A stretch of 64,000 nt of DNA. It comes from Ruegeria arenilitoris. Its GTDB lineage: Bacteria; Pseudomonadota; Alphaproteobacteria; Rhodobacterales; Rhodobacteraceae. Made by a program: the position numbers and the translations under genes. How positions within the stretch are numbered: the first letter of the stretch is position 1; each line of letters opens with the position of its first letter. The DNA lies in NCBI RefSeq assembly GCF_013030985.1, contig NZ_WPYP01000004.1, positions 1-64,000 on the forward strand. Reading direction: 5' to 3'. Positions 44,355-49,433 of the stretch are shown here, piece by piece. Under the pieces are notes generated by a model, which saw nothing but the letters and a program-made list of their open reading frames with translations, did not search any database and was not told the DNA's origin.

Positions 44355-45269
44355 TTAGGCAAATATCATCGAGCTGAGTTTGCGCCGCCCGTTCAGAACA
44401 ATCGGATCGTTGGGCTTGAGCGCGTCGAAGATGGTGAACAGCTGCGTCTTGGCGGCGCCGTCATTCCACTCACGGTCGCGACGGAACAGGTCCAGCAGTT
44501 GCGCAACAGCCTCTTCTACATCGCCGTTGGCGTGCAGGGCCTGCGCCAGATCGAAACGGGCCTGATGGTTGTCGGGCTCGGCTTCGACCGCTGCGGTCAG
44601 CTCGGCCACAGGACCCGCATCAGCGGCCTGTTTGGCCAGCTCCAGCTGCGCATGGGCGGCTTCCAACTCGGGTGACGAGGAAATCTCGGCCGGTGCACCG
44701 TTCAGGATCGCCTCGGCCTGTTCCAGATCACCTGCCGCAATATGGGCACGCACCAGCCCGCCATAAGCACCGGCATGGTTGGGGTCTTCACCCAGAATGG
44801 CGGCAAAGGTCTGGGCTGCGTCACTGGCGGCGCCCTCAGACAGCATCTCTTCGGCGGCGGCAATGGCGTCGTCCAGTTGCCCACCGGGGCTTTCACCGCC
44901 CGCGGCTTCGATCACGCGGTCGACAAATGCCTTGATCTCGGAGCCCGGCTGCGCGCCCTGAAACCCGTCCACAGGCTGACCCTTGAAGAATGCATAGACG
45001 GTCGGGATCGACTGGATGCGCAGTTGCGCGGCGATCATCTGCGCCTCGTCCACATTGATCTTGACCATCTTCACCGCGCCCTTGGCGGCGGTCACTGCTT
45101 CTTCCAGCAGCGGACCAAGCGTCTTGCAGGGGCCGCACCACGGCGCCCAGAAATCCACGATCACCGGAATCTCCTGCGAGGTTTCGACCACGTCGGCCAT
45201 GAACGTGGCCTCGGTTCCGTCCTTGATCAGGTCGGCGTCTGGGCTGGCTGCGGCGTTCAGAAGGTCCAT
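44355..45269 (-). CDS. Thioredoxin with TPR-like tail (CnoX/YbbN family)
   Basis: The 304-residue protein has an N-terminal thioredoxin domain (about 15-120) with the active site WCGPC (C45, C48) and a C-terminal TPR-like helical region (about 130-300). E. coli CnoX (YbbN) has the same layout, protects proteins during oxidative bleach stress and hands them to GroEL, but lacks the full active site. The intact CGPC here suggests real oxidoreductase activity, as in the Caulobacter type. ATG 45269 is preferred; GTG 45278 is too close to GGAGA. Confidence 0.88.
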   Translation of the reverse strand: MDLLNAAASPDADLIKDGTEATFMADVVETSQEIPVIVDFWAPWCGPCKTLGPLLEEAVTAAKGAVKMVKINVDEAQMIAAQLRIQSIPTVYAFFKGQPVDGFQGAQPGSEIKAFVDRVIEAAGGESPGGQLDDAIAAAEEMLSEGAASDAAQTFAAILGEDPNHAGAYGGLVRAHIAAGDLEQAEAILNGAPAEISSSPELEAAHAQLELAKQAADAGPVAELTAAVEAEPDNHQARFDLAQALHANGDVEEAVAQLLDLFRRDREWNDGAAKTQLFTIFDALKPNDPIVLNGRRKLSSMIFA

Positions 45270-45345
45270 GGTATTCACTCTCCGGTTCGAACTTGCGCCC
45301 TATATGCAACCGCTGGCTGCGGAAACCAAGGGCAGAGTTTAGGGG

Positions 45346-46134
45346 TCACAGGTCGAATGTCGCAAAAACGGGGGCGTGGTCGCTGGGTTTCTCCCACCCG
45401 CGCGCGTCGCGCAGGATACGACTGGAATGGCCCGCGTTGGAAATGTCAGGCGTGGCCCAGACGTGATCCAGCCGCCGTCCCTTATCCGCCGCGTCCCAAT
45501 CGCGGGCGCGATAGGACCACCAGCTGTAAAGCTGCCCTTCGGGGATGTCCTGGCGCGTGATATCTACCCAGCCGCCCGCGTCCTGCGTCTCGGCCAATTG
45601 TTCAACCTCGATCGGTGTGTGCGACACCACCTTGAGCAGCTGTTTGTGCGACCACACGTCATCCTCACGCGGAGCGATGTTCAGGTCGCCGACCAGAATC
45701 GATTTCTCGGGCTTTTCCGCATGGAACCAGTCGCGCATGTCGGTGAGGTAATCGAGCTTTTGGCCGAACTTCTCATTCACCTCGCGATCCGGTACGTCAC
45801 CGCCTGCGGGGACGTAGAAGTTGTGGATGGTAACACCATTCTCCAGCCGCCCAGCGATGTGGCGCGCGTGACCAAGACCGGCGAAATCCTTGTCACCCAC
45901 CTCTTCCATCGGCAGGCGCGACAGGATGGCGACGCCGTTATAACCCTTCTGGCCCCGCGCAACCATGTGGGTGTAGCCCAGTTCCGCAAACCCCTCCGTG
46001 GGGATCTTTTCGACCGGCGACTTGCACTCTTGCAGACACAGAACATCCGGCGCCTCTTCCTGCAGCAGTTTCAGCACGATGGGCTCGCGCAGGCGGACCG
46101 AGTTGATGTTCCAGGTGGCAAGGGTAAAGGGCAT
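45346..46134 (-). CDS. xth: Exodeoxyribonuclease III
   Basis: The 262-residue AP endonuclease / 3'-5' exonuclease belongs to the EEP superfamily. Readable blocks are TWNINSVRLRE (N7 region), LQECKSPVEKIP (metal-binding E), ILVGDLNIAPREDDVW (catalytic D and N) and SDHAPVFATFDL (catalytic H) at the C-terminus. It repairs abasic sites and 3'-blocked ends in the base-excision pathway. It lies 76 bases ahead of the thioredoxin gene, so it may share that transcript. Confidence 0.92.
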   Translation of the reverse strand: MPFTLATWNINSVRLREPIVLKLLQEEAPDVLCLQECKSPVEKIPTEGFAELGYTHMVARGQKGYNGVAILSRLPMEEVGDKDFAGLGHARHIAGRLENGVTIHNFYVPAGGDVPDREVNEKFGQKLDYLTDMRDWFHAEKPEKSILVGDLNIAPREDDVWSHKQLLKVVSHTPIEVEQLAETQDAGGWVDITRQDIPEGQLYSWWSYRARDWDAADKGRRLDHVWATPDISNAGHSSRILRDARGWEKPSDHAPVFATFDL

Positions 46135-46357
46135 GGGGGATTCCTCTGTCGCGGTTGGCGCAGACTAGCGTGACGTTTCGCCCGGCACCATGGGAAATGA
46201 CAGAGACAATTGTGTTTTGAAATCCACACCGCGGCGAGCGCTTGGACCGCGATTTCTTCTATATGGAGCGTAGATGAAATTGCCTTTATGTATCAACGCC
46301 CGCATAGAAATCGAAGTCTCCGCCCCCAACATCTATGGAAAGAATATGGAGGAGATC

Positions 46358-46813
46358 ATGACCAACTTTAAGACACTTGGCGCCGCCGCTCTGGCCAGCA
46401 CCTTTGCTTTTGCCACCCTTGCGGCCGCCGAAAACGCACCCGACCTGCGCGGGATCTGGAATGGCACCCACACAGTTGCCGCCCTGCCCAACGAACACAG
46501 CGACGGGGCACCGCGTTTCAATCAGTCCGAATGGGTTCTGGAGATAAAAGAACAACAGGACAATGCATTCTGGGGTACCAGCAAATGGAGCCGCATCGGT
46601 TCGGATCGTTGGAACGAAGGTCAGGTGACCGGAACAATCAGCCGGGATGGTTCAGGTACGATTGCCATGGTCGAAAGTCGCACTGGCGAAGACCGCAAAG
46701 TGAACGGTCTGATTGATGCCACCTTTGAAGATGGCAAAATCTATGCTGATTTCCGCAGCCTCCGCAGTGGCATGACCTACGGCACTATCCTGGAGAAAGA
46801 TGGAACCAGTTAA
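46358..46813 (+). CDS. Secreted hypothetical protein
   Basis: The 151-residue protein has a cleavable signal peptide (to about residue 24, LAAA|ENAP) and a mature part rich in beta-strand and polar residues (RGIWNGTHTVAALPNEH; GQVTGTISRDGSGTIAMVESRTGEDRKVNG), suggesting a small periplasmic beta-barrel domain. I do not recognise a named family. ATG 46358 has a perfect GGAGG ribosome site; the open frame upstream to 46274 lacks a signal peptide. It is monocistronic, with a 223-base gap upstream. Confidence 0.75.
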   Translation: MTNFKTLGAAALASTFAFATLAAAENAPDLRGIWNGTHTVAALPNEHSDGAPRFNQSEWVLEIKEQQDNAFWGTSKWSRIGSDRWNEGQVTGTISRDGSGTIAMVESRTGEDRKVNGLIDATFEDGKIYADFRSLRSGMTYGTILEKDGTS

Positions 46814-46861
46814 CCTTTTCCCCGAGGTGGCAGATTTGCTTTCTCGTCAAAGAATTTAAAG

Positions 46862-46889
46862 AAAAAAAAGCCGGGCCATCAGGCCCGGC
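46862..46889 (-). terminator. Terminator behind cenR / small RNA
   Basis: A perfect 8-base stem (GCCGGGCC and GGCCCGGC, loop of four) at 46870-46889 is followed on the minus strand by eight T residues. It is the strongest intrinsic terminator in the window. It lies 105-132 bases after the cenR stop, far for a plain operon terminator, leaving room for a separate transcript. Confidence 0.9.
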
Positions 46890-46934
46890 AGTCCAACAGG
46901 GAGGTGCATGTCATAACCCGGACATGCGCGGGTT
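46862..46934 (-). ncRNA. Candidate FNR-controlled trans-acting small RNA
   Basis: This is a minus-strand RNA of about 73 bases downstream of cenR. It has a 5' element in which AACCCG can pair with CGGGTT, or GCATGTC with GACATGC (two competing stems), then an unpaired CACCTCCCTG that resembles an anti-Shine-Dalgarno site, then a GC-rich terminator and eight T residues. An FNR-type box at 46969-46982 and a TAATTA -10-like hexamer lie upstream at the spacing of a class II activated promoter. Transcription and function are inferred; it may also be only the 3' UTR of cenR. Confidence 0.4.
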
Positions 46935-46944
46935 GGGAGCAATC

Positions 46945-46982
46945 TAATTACACATCCAGAGTATCACTTTGATCCACGTCAA
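46945..46982 (-). promoter_or_regulatory. FNR/FnrL-type box with -10-like element
   Basis: On the minus strand TTGAC, GTGG, ATCAA occupies 46982-46969; the FNR consensus is TTGAT-N4-ATCAA, so nine of ten defined positions match. TAATTA follows at 46950-46945. A start near 46934-46938 would place the box centre at about -37 to -41.5, as in class II FNR-activated promoters. The only downstream candidate is the small RNA ending at 46862. Confidence 0.45.
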
Positions 46983-46993
46983 TCCACAACCAG

Positions 46994-47680
46994 TTAAGAG
47001 ACGAGCCTATATCCACCCGATTCTGTGACCAAAAGGCGCGCATTGGACGGATCGGGCTCAATCTTCTGGCGCAGGCGATAGATGTGCGTTTCAAGTGTGT
47101 GGGTGGTGACACCGGCGTTATATCCCCAGACCTCATGCAGCAGCACGTCGCGGGCAACCACGCCATCGGTCGAGCGGTACAGGAACTTGAGAATATTGGT
47201 TTCTTTCTCGGTCAGGCGGATTTTGCGATCGTCTTCGGTGATCAGCATCTTCATCGCAGGCTTGAAGGTATAGGGCCCCAGAACGAACACCGCGTCCTCG
47301 GACTGTTCGTGCTGTCTCAGCTGCGCCCGGATACGGGCCAGCAGGACCGGGAATTTGAACGGTTTCGAGACATAATCGTTGGCGCCCGCATCCAGACCCA
47401 GGATGGTATCCGCGTCGCTGTCATGGCCGGTCAGCATCAGAATCGGGCTTTTGACGCCCTGCTTGCGCATCAGGCGGCACAGCTCGCGCCCGTCGGTATC
47501 CGGCAGTCCAACGTCCAGAATGACCAGATCGTAGATCGCTTCGCGCGCGCGCTCCATCGCGGATGCCCCGTCTTGGGCTTCGAACACGTCGAAATCCTCG
47601 GTCATCACAAGTTGCTCGCTGAGCGCCTCGCGCAGATCTTCGTCGTCATCCACCAGCAGGATTTTCTTGAGCTGAGCCAT
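46994..47680 (-). CDS. cenR: OmpR-family response regulator, CenR-like
   Basis: The 228-residue regulator has a receiver domain (residues 5-118, phosphoacceptor D56 in ILDVGLPD) and a C-terminal winged-helix DNA-binding domain (about 130-226). The GYNAGVTTHTLETHIYRLRQKIE block is characteristic of alphaproteobacterial CenR, which with histidine kinase CenK controls cell-envelope integrity and is essential in Caulobacter and Rhodobacter. No kinase gene is adjacent, as is usual for cenR. ATG 47680 has a strong AGGAGGA site; the extension to 47728 is not used. Confidence 0.78.
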   Translation of the reverse strand: MAQLKKILLVDDDEDLREALSEQLVMTEDFDVFEAQDGASAMERAREAIYDLVILDVGLPDTDGRELCRLMRKQGVKSPILMLTGHDSDADTILGLDAGANDYVSKPFKFPVLLARIRAQLRQHEQSEDAVFVLGPYTFKPAMKMLITEDDRKIRLTEKETNILKFLYRSTDGVVARDVLLHEVWGYNAGVTTHTLETHIYRLRQKIEPDPSNARLLVTESGGYRLVS

Positions 47681-47776
47681 GTCCGGTCCTCCTAAGCCTT
47701 TTCCACCACTTGCGCGCGGAAGATGCAATCAACAAGGTTTGCTGCAACGGTTTCACGCCCTCGTGTCTGACGCAGA

Positions 47777-47795
47777 GGAAATGTTTCACATTTCC
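47777..47795. promoter_or_regulatory. Palindromic site between cenR and ribA
   Basis: GGAAATG, TTTCA, CATTTCC forms a 7-base inverted repeat with a five-base centre. It lies 47 bases before the ribA start and 97 bases upstream of cenR. As a symmetric operator-like site in a divergent intergenic region it could serve either gene; the regulator is unknown. Confidence 0.4.
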
Positions 47796-47841
47796 GTCTT
47801 ATCAGGCTACAGGAAGGCCGGATGGTTACAGGGTAACACAG

Positions 47842-48936
47842 ATGAGTCTTGTCCCGGATATTTCAGAATTGCTGGCGCGGGCCCGCGCGGACCTGCGCAT
47901 GGGGGTCCCGGTTGCCCTGACCGATGACAGCGGATTCAGTGTGCTGGCCGTTGCCACCGAAACGCTGAGCGCCCAGCGGCTTGCGGATCTGCGTGGCCTT
48001 GGCGGCGAGCCGGTCGTCGCCGTCACCGTGCGCCGGGCCGAGACGCTGAAGGCGCGGGCCTATGATGGCGATCTGGCGCGGGTGATCATTCCGGCCGACG
48101 CGGATATTGCATGGGTTCAGGCCGTGGCCGATCCCTCGGACGATCTGAACGCTCCGATGAAGGGTCCCCTGATGACAGAACGTCAGGGCCACGCCAACCT
48201 GCACCGCATTGCCATCGCCCTGACCAAATCGGCGCGCCTGTTGCCTGCGGCGGTTGTTCTGCCCATCGAGGACGGGCACAGTTTTGCGGCGGCACATGGG
48301 CTGACATGTATCGACCACACTCGCGCTGCGCCGCATCTGGCCGATCGCAGCGAACTGCACGCGGTGGTCGCCGCCCGCCTGCCGATGGAAGTGTCCGAAG
48401 CCGGGCGACTGCACGTATTCCGCCCCGACGATGGCGGCGAAGAGCATTACGCCGTCGAAATCGGCCGCCCGGATCGTGACAAACCGGTTTTGGCGCGGCT
48501 GCATTCGGCCTGTTTCACCGGCGACCTGATGGGCAGCCTGAAATGCGATTGCGGTCCTCAGTTGCGGGGCGCGCTGGCGCAGATGGGCTCGGAAGGGGCC
48601 GGGGTTCTGCTGTATCTCAACCAAGAAGGGCGCGGGATCGGTCTGGCCAACAAGATGCGCGCCTATTTCCTGCAGGACCAGGGATTCGACACAGTCGAGG
48701 CCAATCACCGGCTAGGGTTCGAAGACGATGAGCGGGACTTCCGGCTGGGTTCGGACATTTTGAAATCGCTGGGATTCAGCTCGGTTCGGCTGCTGACCAA
48801 TAACCCCGCAAAAATCGCGATGATGGAGAATACCGGCATCGCCGTGACCGAGCGTGTTCCGCTGAAAGTCGGCGAAACCGCCCATAACCGCGGATATCTG
48901 GCGACCAAGGCGGCGAAGTCAGGGCACCTGCTGTGA
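47842..48936 (+). CDS. ribA: GTP cyclohydrolase II with N-terminal extension
   Basis: The 364-residue protein has a C-terminal GTP cyclohydrolase II domain (about 170-360) with zinc cysteines C224, C235 and C237 in HSACFTGDLMGSLKCDCG and the NQEGRGIGLANKMRAY active-site block. It opens GTP to 2,5-diamino-6-ribosylamino-pyrimidinone phosphate, the first step of riboflavin synthesis. Residues 1-150 loosely follow the order of a DHBP synthase (RibB) domain (RADLRMGVPVALTDDSG) but lack its metal-binding residues, so they look like a degenerate RibB half. ATG 47842 is chosen. The GTGA overlap couples it to the next gene. Confidence 0.88.
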   Translation: MSLVPDISELLARARADLRMGVPVALTDDSGFSVLAVATETLSAQRLADLRGLGGEPVVAVTVRRAETLKARAYDGDLARVIIPADADIAWVQAVADPSDDLNAPMKGPLMTERQGHANLHRIAIALTKSARLLPAAVVLPIEDGHSFAAAHGLTCIDHTRAAPHLADRSELHAVVAARLPMEVSEAGRLHVFRPDDGGEEHYAVEIGRPDRDKPVLARLHSACFTGDLMGSLKCDCGPQLRGALAQMGSEGAGVLLYLNQEGRGIGLANKMRAYFLQDQGFDTVEANHRLGFEDDERDFRLGSDILKSLGFSSVRLLTNNPAKIAMMENTGIAVTERVPLKVGETAHNRGYLATKAAKSGHLL

Positions 48937-49433
48937 CGCCGGATGATCTGGTGCTGACCCCGCGCGGTGTTCGGTTTGCCGGTCGGGTCTTTCCCAGTTC
49001 CATCGGCAAAGGCGGGCTGACCAATACCAAACGCGAAGGTGACGGTGCCACACCCTCTGGCGTGCATCATATCGTCGGTATGTTTTATCGGCCCGACCGG
49101 ATTGCGAAGCCGGCTGAATGGGCGATTCCCATCGGCCCGCGCGACCTGTGGTCAGATGACGTCCGGGACGACGACTATAACCATCTGGTCACCGCGCCCT
49201 ATGCCTTCAGCCATGAAAAGCTACGCCGCGCCGATCCGCTGTATGATCTGGTGCTGATCACCGACTGGAACTGGCCCAATGCCGTGCCCGGTCGCGGATC
49301 GGCGATCTTCATTCACCAGTGGCGGCGCCCCGGCTATCCGACCGAGGGCTGCGTTGCCTTCCGTCGCGACCACCTGCATTGGATCGCGGGCAAGGTGTCT
49401 CTGGGCGCGCGGCTGATTATTCCTGAGGCTTGA
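48933..49433 (+). CDS. L,D-transpeptidase (YkuD) family protein
   Basis: The 166-residue YkuD-domain protein has the catalytic histidine H128 in IFIHQW and the cysteine C140 in TEGCVAF. Classical L,D-transpeptidases cross-link peptidoglycan or attach lipoproteins, but no signal peptide is seen here, so export is not evident and a cytoplasmic or unusual role is possible. It starts at GTG 48933, overlapping the ribA stop. The stop overlaps the convergent yggS gene by 17 bases. Confidence 0.85.
   Translation: MTPDDLVLTPRGVRFAGRVFPSSIGKGGLTNTKREGDGATPSGVHHIVGMFYRPDRIAKPAEWAIPIGPRDLWSDDVRDDDYNHLVTAPYAFSHEKLRRADPLYDLVLITDWNWPNAVPGRGSAIFIHQWRRPGYPTEGCVAFRRDHLHWIAGKVSLGARLIIPEA

Follow-up and report, generated by a model that had tools for sequence, protein, structure and literature searches.

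Behind cenR, on the minus strand of the 64-kb stretch of Ruegeria arenilitoris DNA analysed here (the window), lies a compact element that ends in a strong terminator, and the question it raises is which RNA is made there and from which promoter. The RNA is sorX, the orthologue of Rhodobacter sphaeroides SorX, and occupies positions 46934-46862. The match to SorX (RF02784) scores 77.9 bits against a gathering score of 46.6 and covers model positions 1-73 of 73, and SorX is the only Rfam family found at gathering thresholds in the window. The RNA lies 3' of cenR/RSP_0847, as expected of SorX, and its folding is more stable than that of any of 200 dinucleotide shuffles (z = -3.44). SorX is present in all 54 Ruegeria genomes and in 134 of 198 genomes of the family (E <= 1e-12 for the latter). 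The elements that the earlier note had described behind cenR are all present; being a SorX orthologue in the expected place, the RNA does not constitute a new family, a candidate ruled out by the match at full model length. Two other assignments were rejected: SorY (RF02651) reaches 29.7 bits where its gathering score is 111, and FnrS, which is a family in Rfam, is absent among the six matches obtained around the locus at E values up to 1. The new part of this locus is the promoter; the RNA itself is already known.

The arrangement of the locus agrees with this identity. There are 104 bases between the cenR stop (46994) and the terminator stem; this gap, counted earlier as 105 bases and regarded as hard to explain, no longer is so because the known SorX gene fills it. 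The box described below ends 11 bases from the cenR stop region, and the SorX RNA begins 59 bases past the stop. The predicted 5' end near 46934 coincides with position 1 of the Rfam model, and both the unpaired anti-Shine-Dalgarno stretch and the terminator with eight T residues are found as proposed. The best NCBIfam matches of the cenR product are OmpR-family regulators, with none over its cut-off among the best 25 of 99, and the protein is 98-99% identical to CenR of named Ruegeria records; RSP_0847 has been equated with CenR (PMC9275681). On the opposite strand an open reading frame of 179 amino acids (46274-46813, plus strand) heads towards sorX and ends 48 bases short of the terminator T run.

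Table. Features of the sorX locus, in coordinates of the window
Feature	Position	Strand	Basis
cenR, OmpR-type response regulator, orthologue of RSP_0847	46994..47680	-	Open reading frame; its 3' end bears sorX
FNR-type box TTGACGTGGATCAA	46969..46982	-	Centred at -41.5 from 46934; kept in 37/133 genera and 48/48 Ruegeria loci examined
-10 element TAGATT	46941..46946	-	T-12 in 29/37 and A-11 in 28/37 box-aligned genera
Transcription start, predicted	46934	-	Spacing of box and -10 element, start of the Rfam SorX match; equals model position 1
sorX small RNA	46862..46934	-	RF02784, 77.9 bits, 46934-46864; T run to 46862
Pseudoknot helix S1, 5' strand CCCG	46929..46932	-	Pairs with 46920-46917; covariation
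Pseudoknot helix S1, 3' strand CGGG, in hairpin loop	46917..46920	-	Covariation
Helix S2, 5' strand GCATGTC	46921..46927	-	Rfam structure line, minimum-energy fold
Helix S2, 3' strand GACATGC	46906..46912	-	Rfam structure line, minimum-energy fold
Single-stranded seed ACCTCCCTGTTGGACT, anti-Shine-Dalgarno	46890..46905	-	Unpaired in centroid fold; retained in relatives
Intrinsic terminator (8-bp stem, T run of eight)	46862..46889	-	Terminator stem all G-C

The FNR-type box on which an oxygen-regulated promoter would depend is present and is conserved in relatives. Its occurrence in the window, taken alone, is weak evidence: the pattern TTGAYNNNNRTCAA is found once, and shuffled windows hold 0.22 copies on average, with at least one copy in 21 of 100. 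Since a single box per 64 kb is unremarkable, conservation is the test. The family was sampled evenly (198 genomes, 134 with SorX) and reduced to one genome per genus, which left 133 after the second Ruegeria genome (G042) was dropped; where a genome had two SorX copies, one was kept. In the 150 nt ahead of SorX, 32 of the 133 genera have a perfect TTGAYNNNNRTCAA, against 0.11 in shuffles (100 rounds, maximum 1), and 41 have a box that agrees at 9 or more positions out of 10, against 2.29 (maximum 8), figures that ignore kinship among the genera. At 38-60 nt upstream, 37 genera hold a box of at least 9/10, 29 of them a perfect one, against 0, 0, 0 and 1 boxes in control windows of equal length at 61-83, 84-106, 107-129 and 15-37 nt; the control windows between 61 and 129 nt often fall inside the cenR coding sequence, and the Y/R consensus of the box was chosen after the sequences had been looked at. 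A chance origin of the conserved box was rejected on both comparisons. Within Ruegeria, all 48 loci examined (of 54) keep a box of at least 9/10, which is perfect in 39, and 46 of the 48 share an identical distance from box to seed. The decisive evidence for the box is thus its conservation at fixed spacing in relatives.

This conservation does not extend to the whole family. Among 80 named cenR loci, a SorX seed lies within 330 nt of the stop in 64, of which 31 possess a box of at least 9/10, and no seed is found within that distance in the other 16. No box of at least 9/10 is encountered at 38-60 nt in 96 of the 133 SorX genera, most of which have FnrL, so that the promoter does not characterise the family as a whole. 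On a tree of the 64 named CenR loci, 30 of them box-bearing, 14 changes are needed to explain the box label (21.7 on average after shuffling, none of 500 shuffles as low), and the starred branches force at least 7 label changes, with a bootstrap that is not settled. The box is clustered on the CenR-locus tree, yet it has been repeatedly gained or lost.

Box and start are arranged as in a class II FNR promoter. The box is a palindrome of the TTGAT-N4-ATCAA type, and with its centre at 46975.5 and the SorX start at 46934 it lies exactly at -41.5, which bears out the class II spacing claimed for it. When the 37 genera are aligned on the box, conserved columns appear at A-34 (29/37) and G-33 (33/37) and at T-13 (29/37), T-12 (29/37) and A-11 (28/37), and the last three are a -10 element at the distance of class II FNR promoters. 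Projected on this locus, these columns fall on TAGATT, with the start at 46934. The earlier note had pointed to a TAATTA element, which is present at 46950-46945 of the minus strand, but TAGATT is the better position for the conserved -10 hexamer. A scan of positions 45000-49000 for the sigma-70 consensus yielded no promoter match; a class II FNR promoter can do without a -35 element. In Dinoroseobacter shibae, a position 41.5 bp upstream of the start has been described as almost optimal for Fnr-dependent promoters (PMC5398030).

A class II promoter of this kind requires an FNR-type protein with cluster cysteines, and the genome encodes FnrL (NF045989, 454.9 bits against a cut-off of 300) with a cysteine-rich N terminus. 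The pattern with AAAG, TTGAYNNNNRTCAAAG, is found 8 times in the 4.76-Mb genome, against 0 for the reversed-pattern control. Two copies (L241 and L242) precede genes with starts that match ccoG (C9:28701) and ccoN (C9:33492), both named from protein fragments with scores below the whole-protein cut-offs; ccoN and ccoG are known FNR targets in relatives. The copy on the ccoN side is about 1.3 kb from fnrL, and five more copies (L239, L240, L243, L244 and L246) occur elsewhere in the genome. Among the 133 SorX genomes, 122 possess an FnrL-like protein (E <= 1e-45, 49-100% identity). The box is found in 34 of 99 genomes with an FnrL at least 65% identical and in 3 of 34 others (Fisher p = 0.0037, relatedness ignored), and one of these three (G150) is only 84% complete. 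For R. sphaeroides, the link between FnrL and SorX has been published in part: FnrL ChIP-seq named a site in the presumed promoter region of RSs2461, with an effect that could not be established (PMC4263372), and RSs2461 was later renamed SorX (PMC5036791).

The 5' part of the RNA had been described as two competing stems. Both exist, namely AACCCG/CGGGTT (6 bp) and GCATGTC/GACATGC (7 bp), and the conserved part of the former is CCCG/CGGG (S1); however, they follow each other in the order a-b-a'-b' and can form together. Pairing was counted in 110 genera, that is, the 133 less 5 that could not be parsed and 18 without an 8-nt loop, R. sphaeroides being misparsed among the latter. In 98 of the 110, the first four loop bases show 4/4 Watson-Crick pairing with the 5' flank, compared with a mean of 52 and a maximum of 70 when loops were dealt out among genera (2000 rounds), 4.65 (maximum 11 in 300) when flank letters were shuffled and 8 after a one-base slide. 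When identical rows were merged, 50 of 62 were fully paired against 25 in the control (maximum 37); relatedness of the genera was left in all these controls. The pair types are CCCG/CGGG (62), CCCC/GGGG (30) and CCCT/AGGG (3), with TCCC/GGGA, TCCG/CGGA and GCCG/CGGC once each, so that two types carry most of the covariation signal. Most of the 98 paired rows have 1-2 nt in the first loop, 4 bp in S1, 4 nt in the third loop and 7-8 bp in S2, and such a geometry suits an H-type pseudoknot. From sequence comparison, the two stems are thus better read as an H-type pseudoknot. That they are instead alternatives acting as a switch, never pseudoknotted in one molecule, is the less favoured account: the nested minimum-energy fold contains only the 7-bp stem, the Rfam structure line as shown gives the second helix only, and S1 is here extendable to 6 bp, which would leave a third loop of 2 nt, while the order of the strands and the loop and stem lengths in the 98 rows speak for the pseudoknot. 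Nothing on SorX in connection with a pseudoknot was found in the literature searched, and for this known family the pseudoknot amounts to a specific prediction of structure.

The preferred reading, held with a probability of about 75%, is that sorX has here an additional class II promoter of the FnrL type that would serve at low oxygen. It rests on the identity of SorX, the box and -10 element at fixed spacing, the covariation of S1 and the presence of an FnrL gene. In the inferred mechanism, FnrL with an intact iron-sulphur cluster would bind TTGAC-N4-ATCAA, centred at -41.5, when oxygen is low; bound FnrL would contact RNA polymerase at TAGATT, and transcription would begin at about 46934 in vivo, yielding SorX in finished form with no need for RNase E. 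A second SorX pool probably comes from cenR read-through, as in R. sphaeroides. The RNA would consist of the H-type pseudoknot first, ACCTCCCTGTTGGA exposed as a single strand and the terminator hairpin last, and would block the ribosome-binding sites of target mRNAs, probably those of transporters. According to the central claim of the earlier note, a small RNA is made here from an FNR-type class II promoter of its own and exposes an anti-Shine-Dalgarno sequence; this claim is supported in that box, spacing, loop and terminator are all conserved in relatives.

Three other readings of the locus have to be weighed. SorX might be only the processed 3' UTR of cenR, with a box that is due to chance or is without effect; in R. 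sphaeroides SorX has been published as a processing product, and the 96 genera without a box still keep SorX behind cenR. This is nevertheless improbable given the box and -10 element at fixed spacing over 37 genera, the box in every Ruegeria locus examined and the excess of perfect boxes over chance. Somewhat easier to entertain, though still unlikely, is a real promoter read by another Crp/Fnr protein of the Dnr, NnrR, FixK or CrpK type, in which case the signal would be nitric oxide or redox state rather than oxygen. Several further Crp/Fnr-type genes are present in this genome, Dnr and Anr sites are reported to share the palindrome (PMC5398030), and the CrpK and FnrL regulons are described as overlapping in R. 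sphaeroides (PMC4263372). The genome, however, encodes a clear FnrL equivalog, genomes with a close FnrL more often have the box, and it is FnrL whose ChIP-seq names the R. sphaeroides locus (PMC4263372), although a second protein may share the site. Finally, the element as a mere cenR terminator that gives no regulatory RNA is hardly credible: the terminator behind cenR is strong, but the match is full-length to an experimentally described sRNA family that is present throughout Ruegeria and in most of the family genomes sampled.

The seed can pair with purine-rich ribosome-binding sites. Five 13-mers with one mismatch are found in the genome, two of them 5 nt ahead of an ATG. Shine-Dalgarno sites complementary to the seed at 12 of 13 positions belong to an ABC-type solute-binding protein (C23:57991, PF01547, SBP_bac_1) and to a TRAP DctP-type solute-binding protein (C29:60885, PF03480, gene at C29:59644-60879), for which duplexes of -24.2 and -24.3 kcal/mol, respectively, are predicted; the two sites are a lead. 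Upstream of the TRAP gene, CAGGGAGGT is kept in 28 of the 30 orthologues read (of 45 found) and the full AACAGGGAGGT in 10 of 30; as the whole upstream stretch is conserved, conservation of the seed site does not discriminate there. Repression of potA is among the traits of SorX; in this genome four potA-family genes score over the cut-off, one with ACAGGGAG before a candidate start (-16.9 kcal/mol) and another with -17.2 kcal/mol, both being raw energies at candidate starts. Allowing two mismatches gave 119 matches against 52 in the reversed control, largely noise, of which 12 were looked at, and most of the matches listed for the genus-wide target pattern look like the antisense strand of sRNA genes. 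Transporters are published targets of both SorX and SorY, and the complementarities suggest that the targets of SorX here are probably transporters as well.

Further SorX-like sequences are found outside this locus. A second SorX-like RNA lies outside the window (L002, G000:C1:440360-440422) and scores 46.8 bits, just over the cut-off; it has the same ACCTCCCTGTTGGACT seed and a different 5' part, and no FNR box is found in the 150 nt upstream of it. Each of the 54 Ruegeria genomes contains 2-6 SorX matches (E <= 0.001). In five genera (G200:C3, G075:C183, G234:C35, G242:C76 and G236:C1), a single contig carries two neighbouring matches, separated by between about 70 nt and 1 kb, as tandem or duplicated sorX.

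A more comprehensive model, advanced tentatively, is that SorX has two inputs: oxidative stress, acting via cenR read-through and RNase E, and low oxygen, acting via a separate FnrL promoter that has been gained or lost repeatedly in Rhodobacteraceae. Processed and primary forms with nearly the same 5' end would then occur, the conserved H-type pseudoknot would cap and protect that end, and the targets would include ABC and TRAP solute-binding proteins. In reviews, SorX exemplifies the sRNAs of the photo-oxidative stress response that derive from a 3' UTR. If many relatives do use such a promoter, the family would offer naturally occurring loci that have an internal promoter next to loci that lack one, in which the start of the class II FNR promoter falls where processed SorX begins elsewhere, and the way in which a 3' UTR RNA turns into an independent gene becomes testable. 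Oxygen limitation would also be tied to transporter control in marine bacteria, and the FnrL ChIP-seq site at RSs2461 of R. sphaeroides would gain a meaning. Apart from that site, no link between SorX and FnrL was found in the literature searched; nor was a claim that SorX has its own promoter, which is no proof of absence. SorX, Fnr and oxygen were not found in the main text consulted of a paper on Ruegeria pomeroyi sRNAs (PMC4809877), and no mention of sRNA or small RNA was found in the consulted parts of the D. shibae paper on FnrL and Dnr (PMC5398030).

Several known small RNAs can be compared with this one. FnrS of enterobacteria would resemble it, as a short trans-acting RNA with FNR-type activation, only if the sorX promoter functions, and the sorX locus has no sequence or structure match to FnrS. 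PcrZ of R. sphaeroides is an sRNA reported to be under FnrL, together with PrrA and AppA, but is set apart by its description as a 136-nt RNA with photosynthesis targets (PMC8307010). SorY (RF02651) has the ACCTCCCTGTTGGACT seed in common and also has a transporter target in R. sphaeroides, but it differs in its score of 29.7 bits against 111 and is described as having its own promoter in that species. SorX of R. sphaeroides belongs to the same family and shares the place behind cenR/RSP_0847, the seed and the terminator. There it is reported as a 75-nt RNA that RNase E cuts from the 3' UTR of cenR (RSP_0847), RNase E-dependent processing from a precursor and Hfq binding being its described traits; an RpoHI/II promoter is described as driving it together with RSP_0847, and both singlet oxygen and superoxide induce it (PMC3320616). 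The R. sphaeroides locus (G103) differs from the present one in possessing no 9/10 FNR box at 38-60 nt, its only candidate being TTGCGTGAGATCAA (8/10), centred 70 nt upstream of SorX and overlapping the cenR stop, and its RNA is released from the cenR co-transcript by RNase E.
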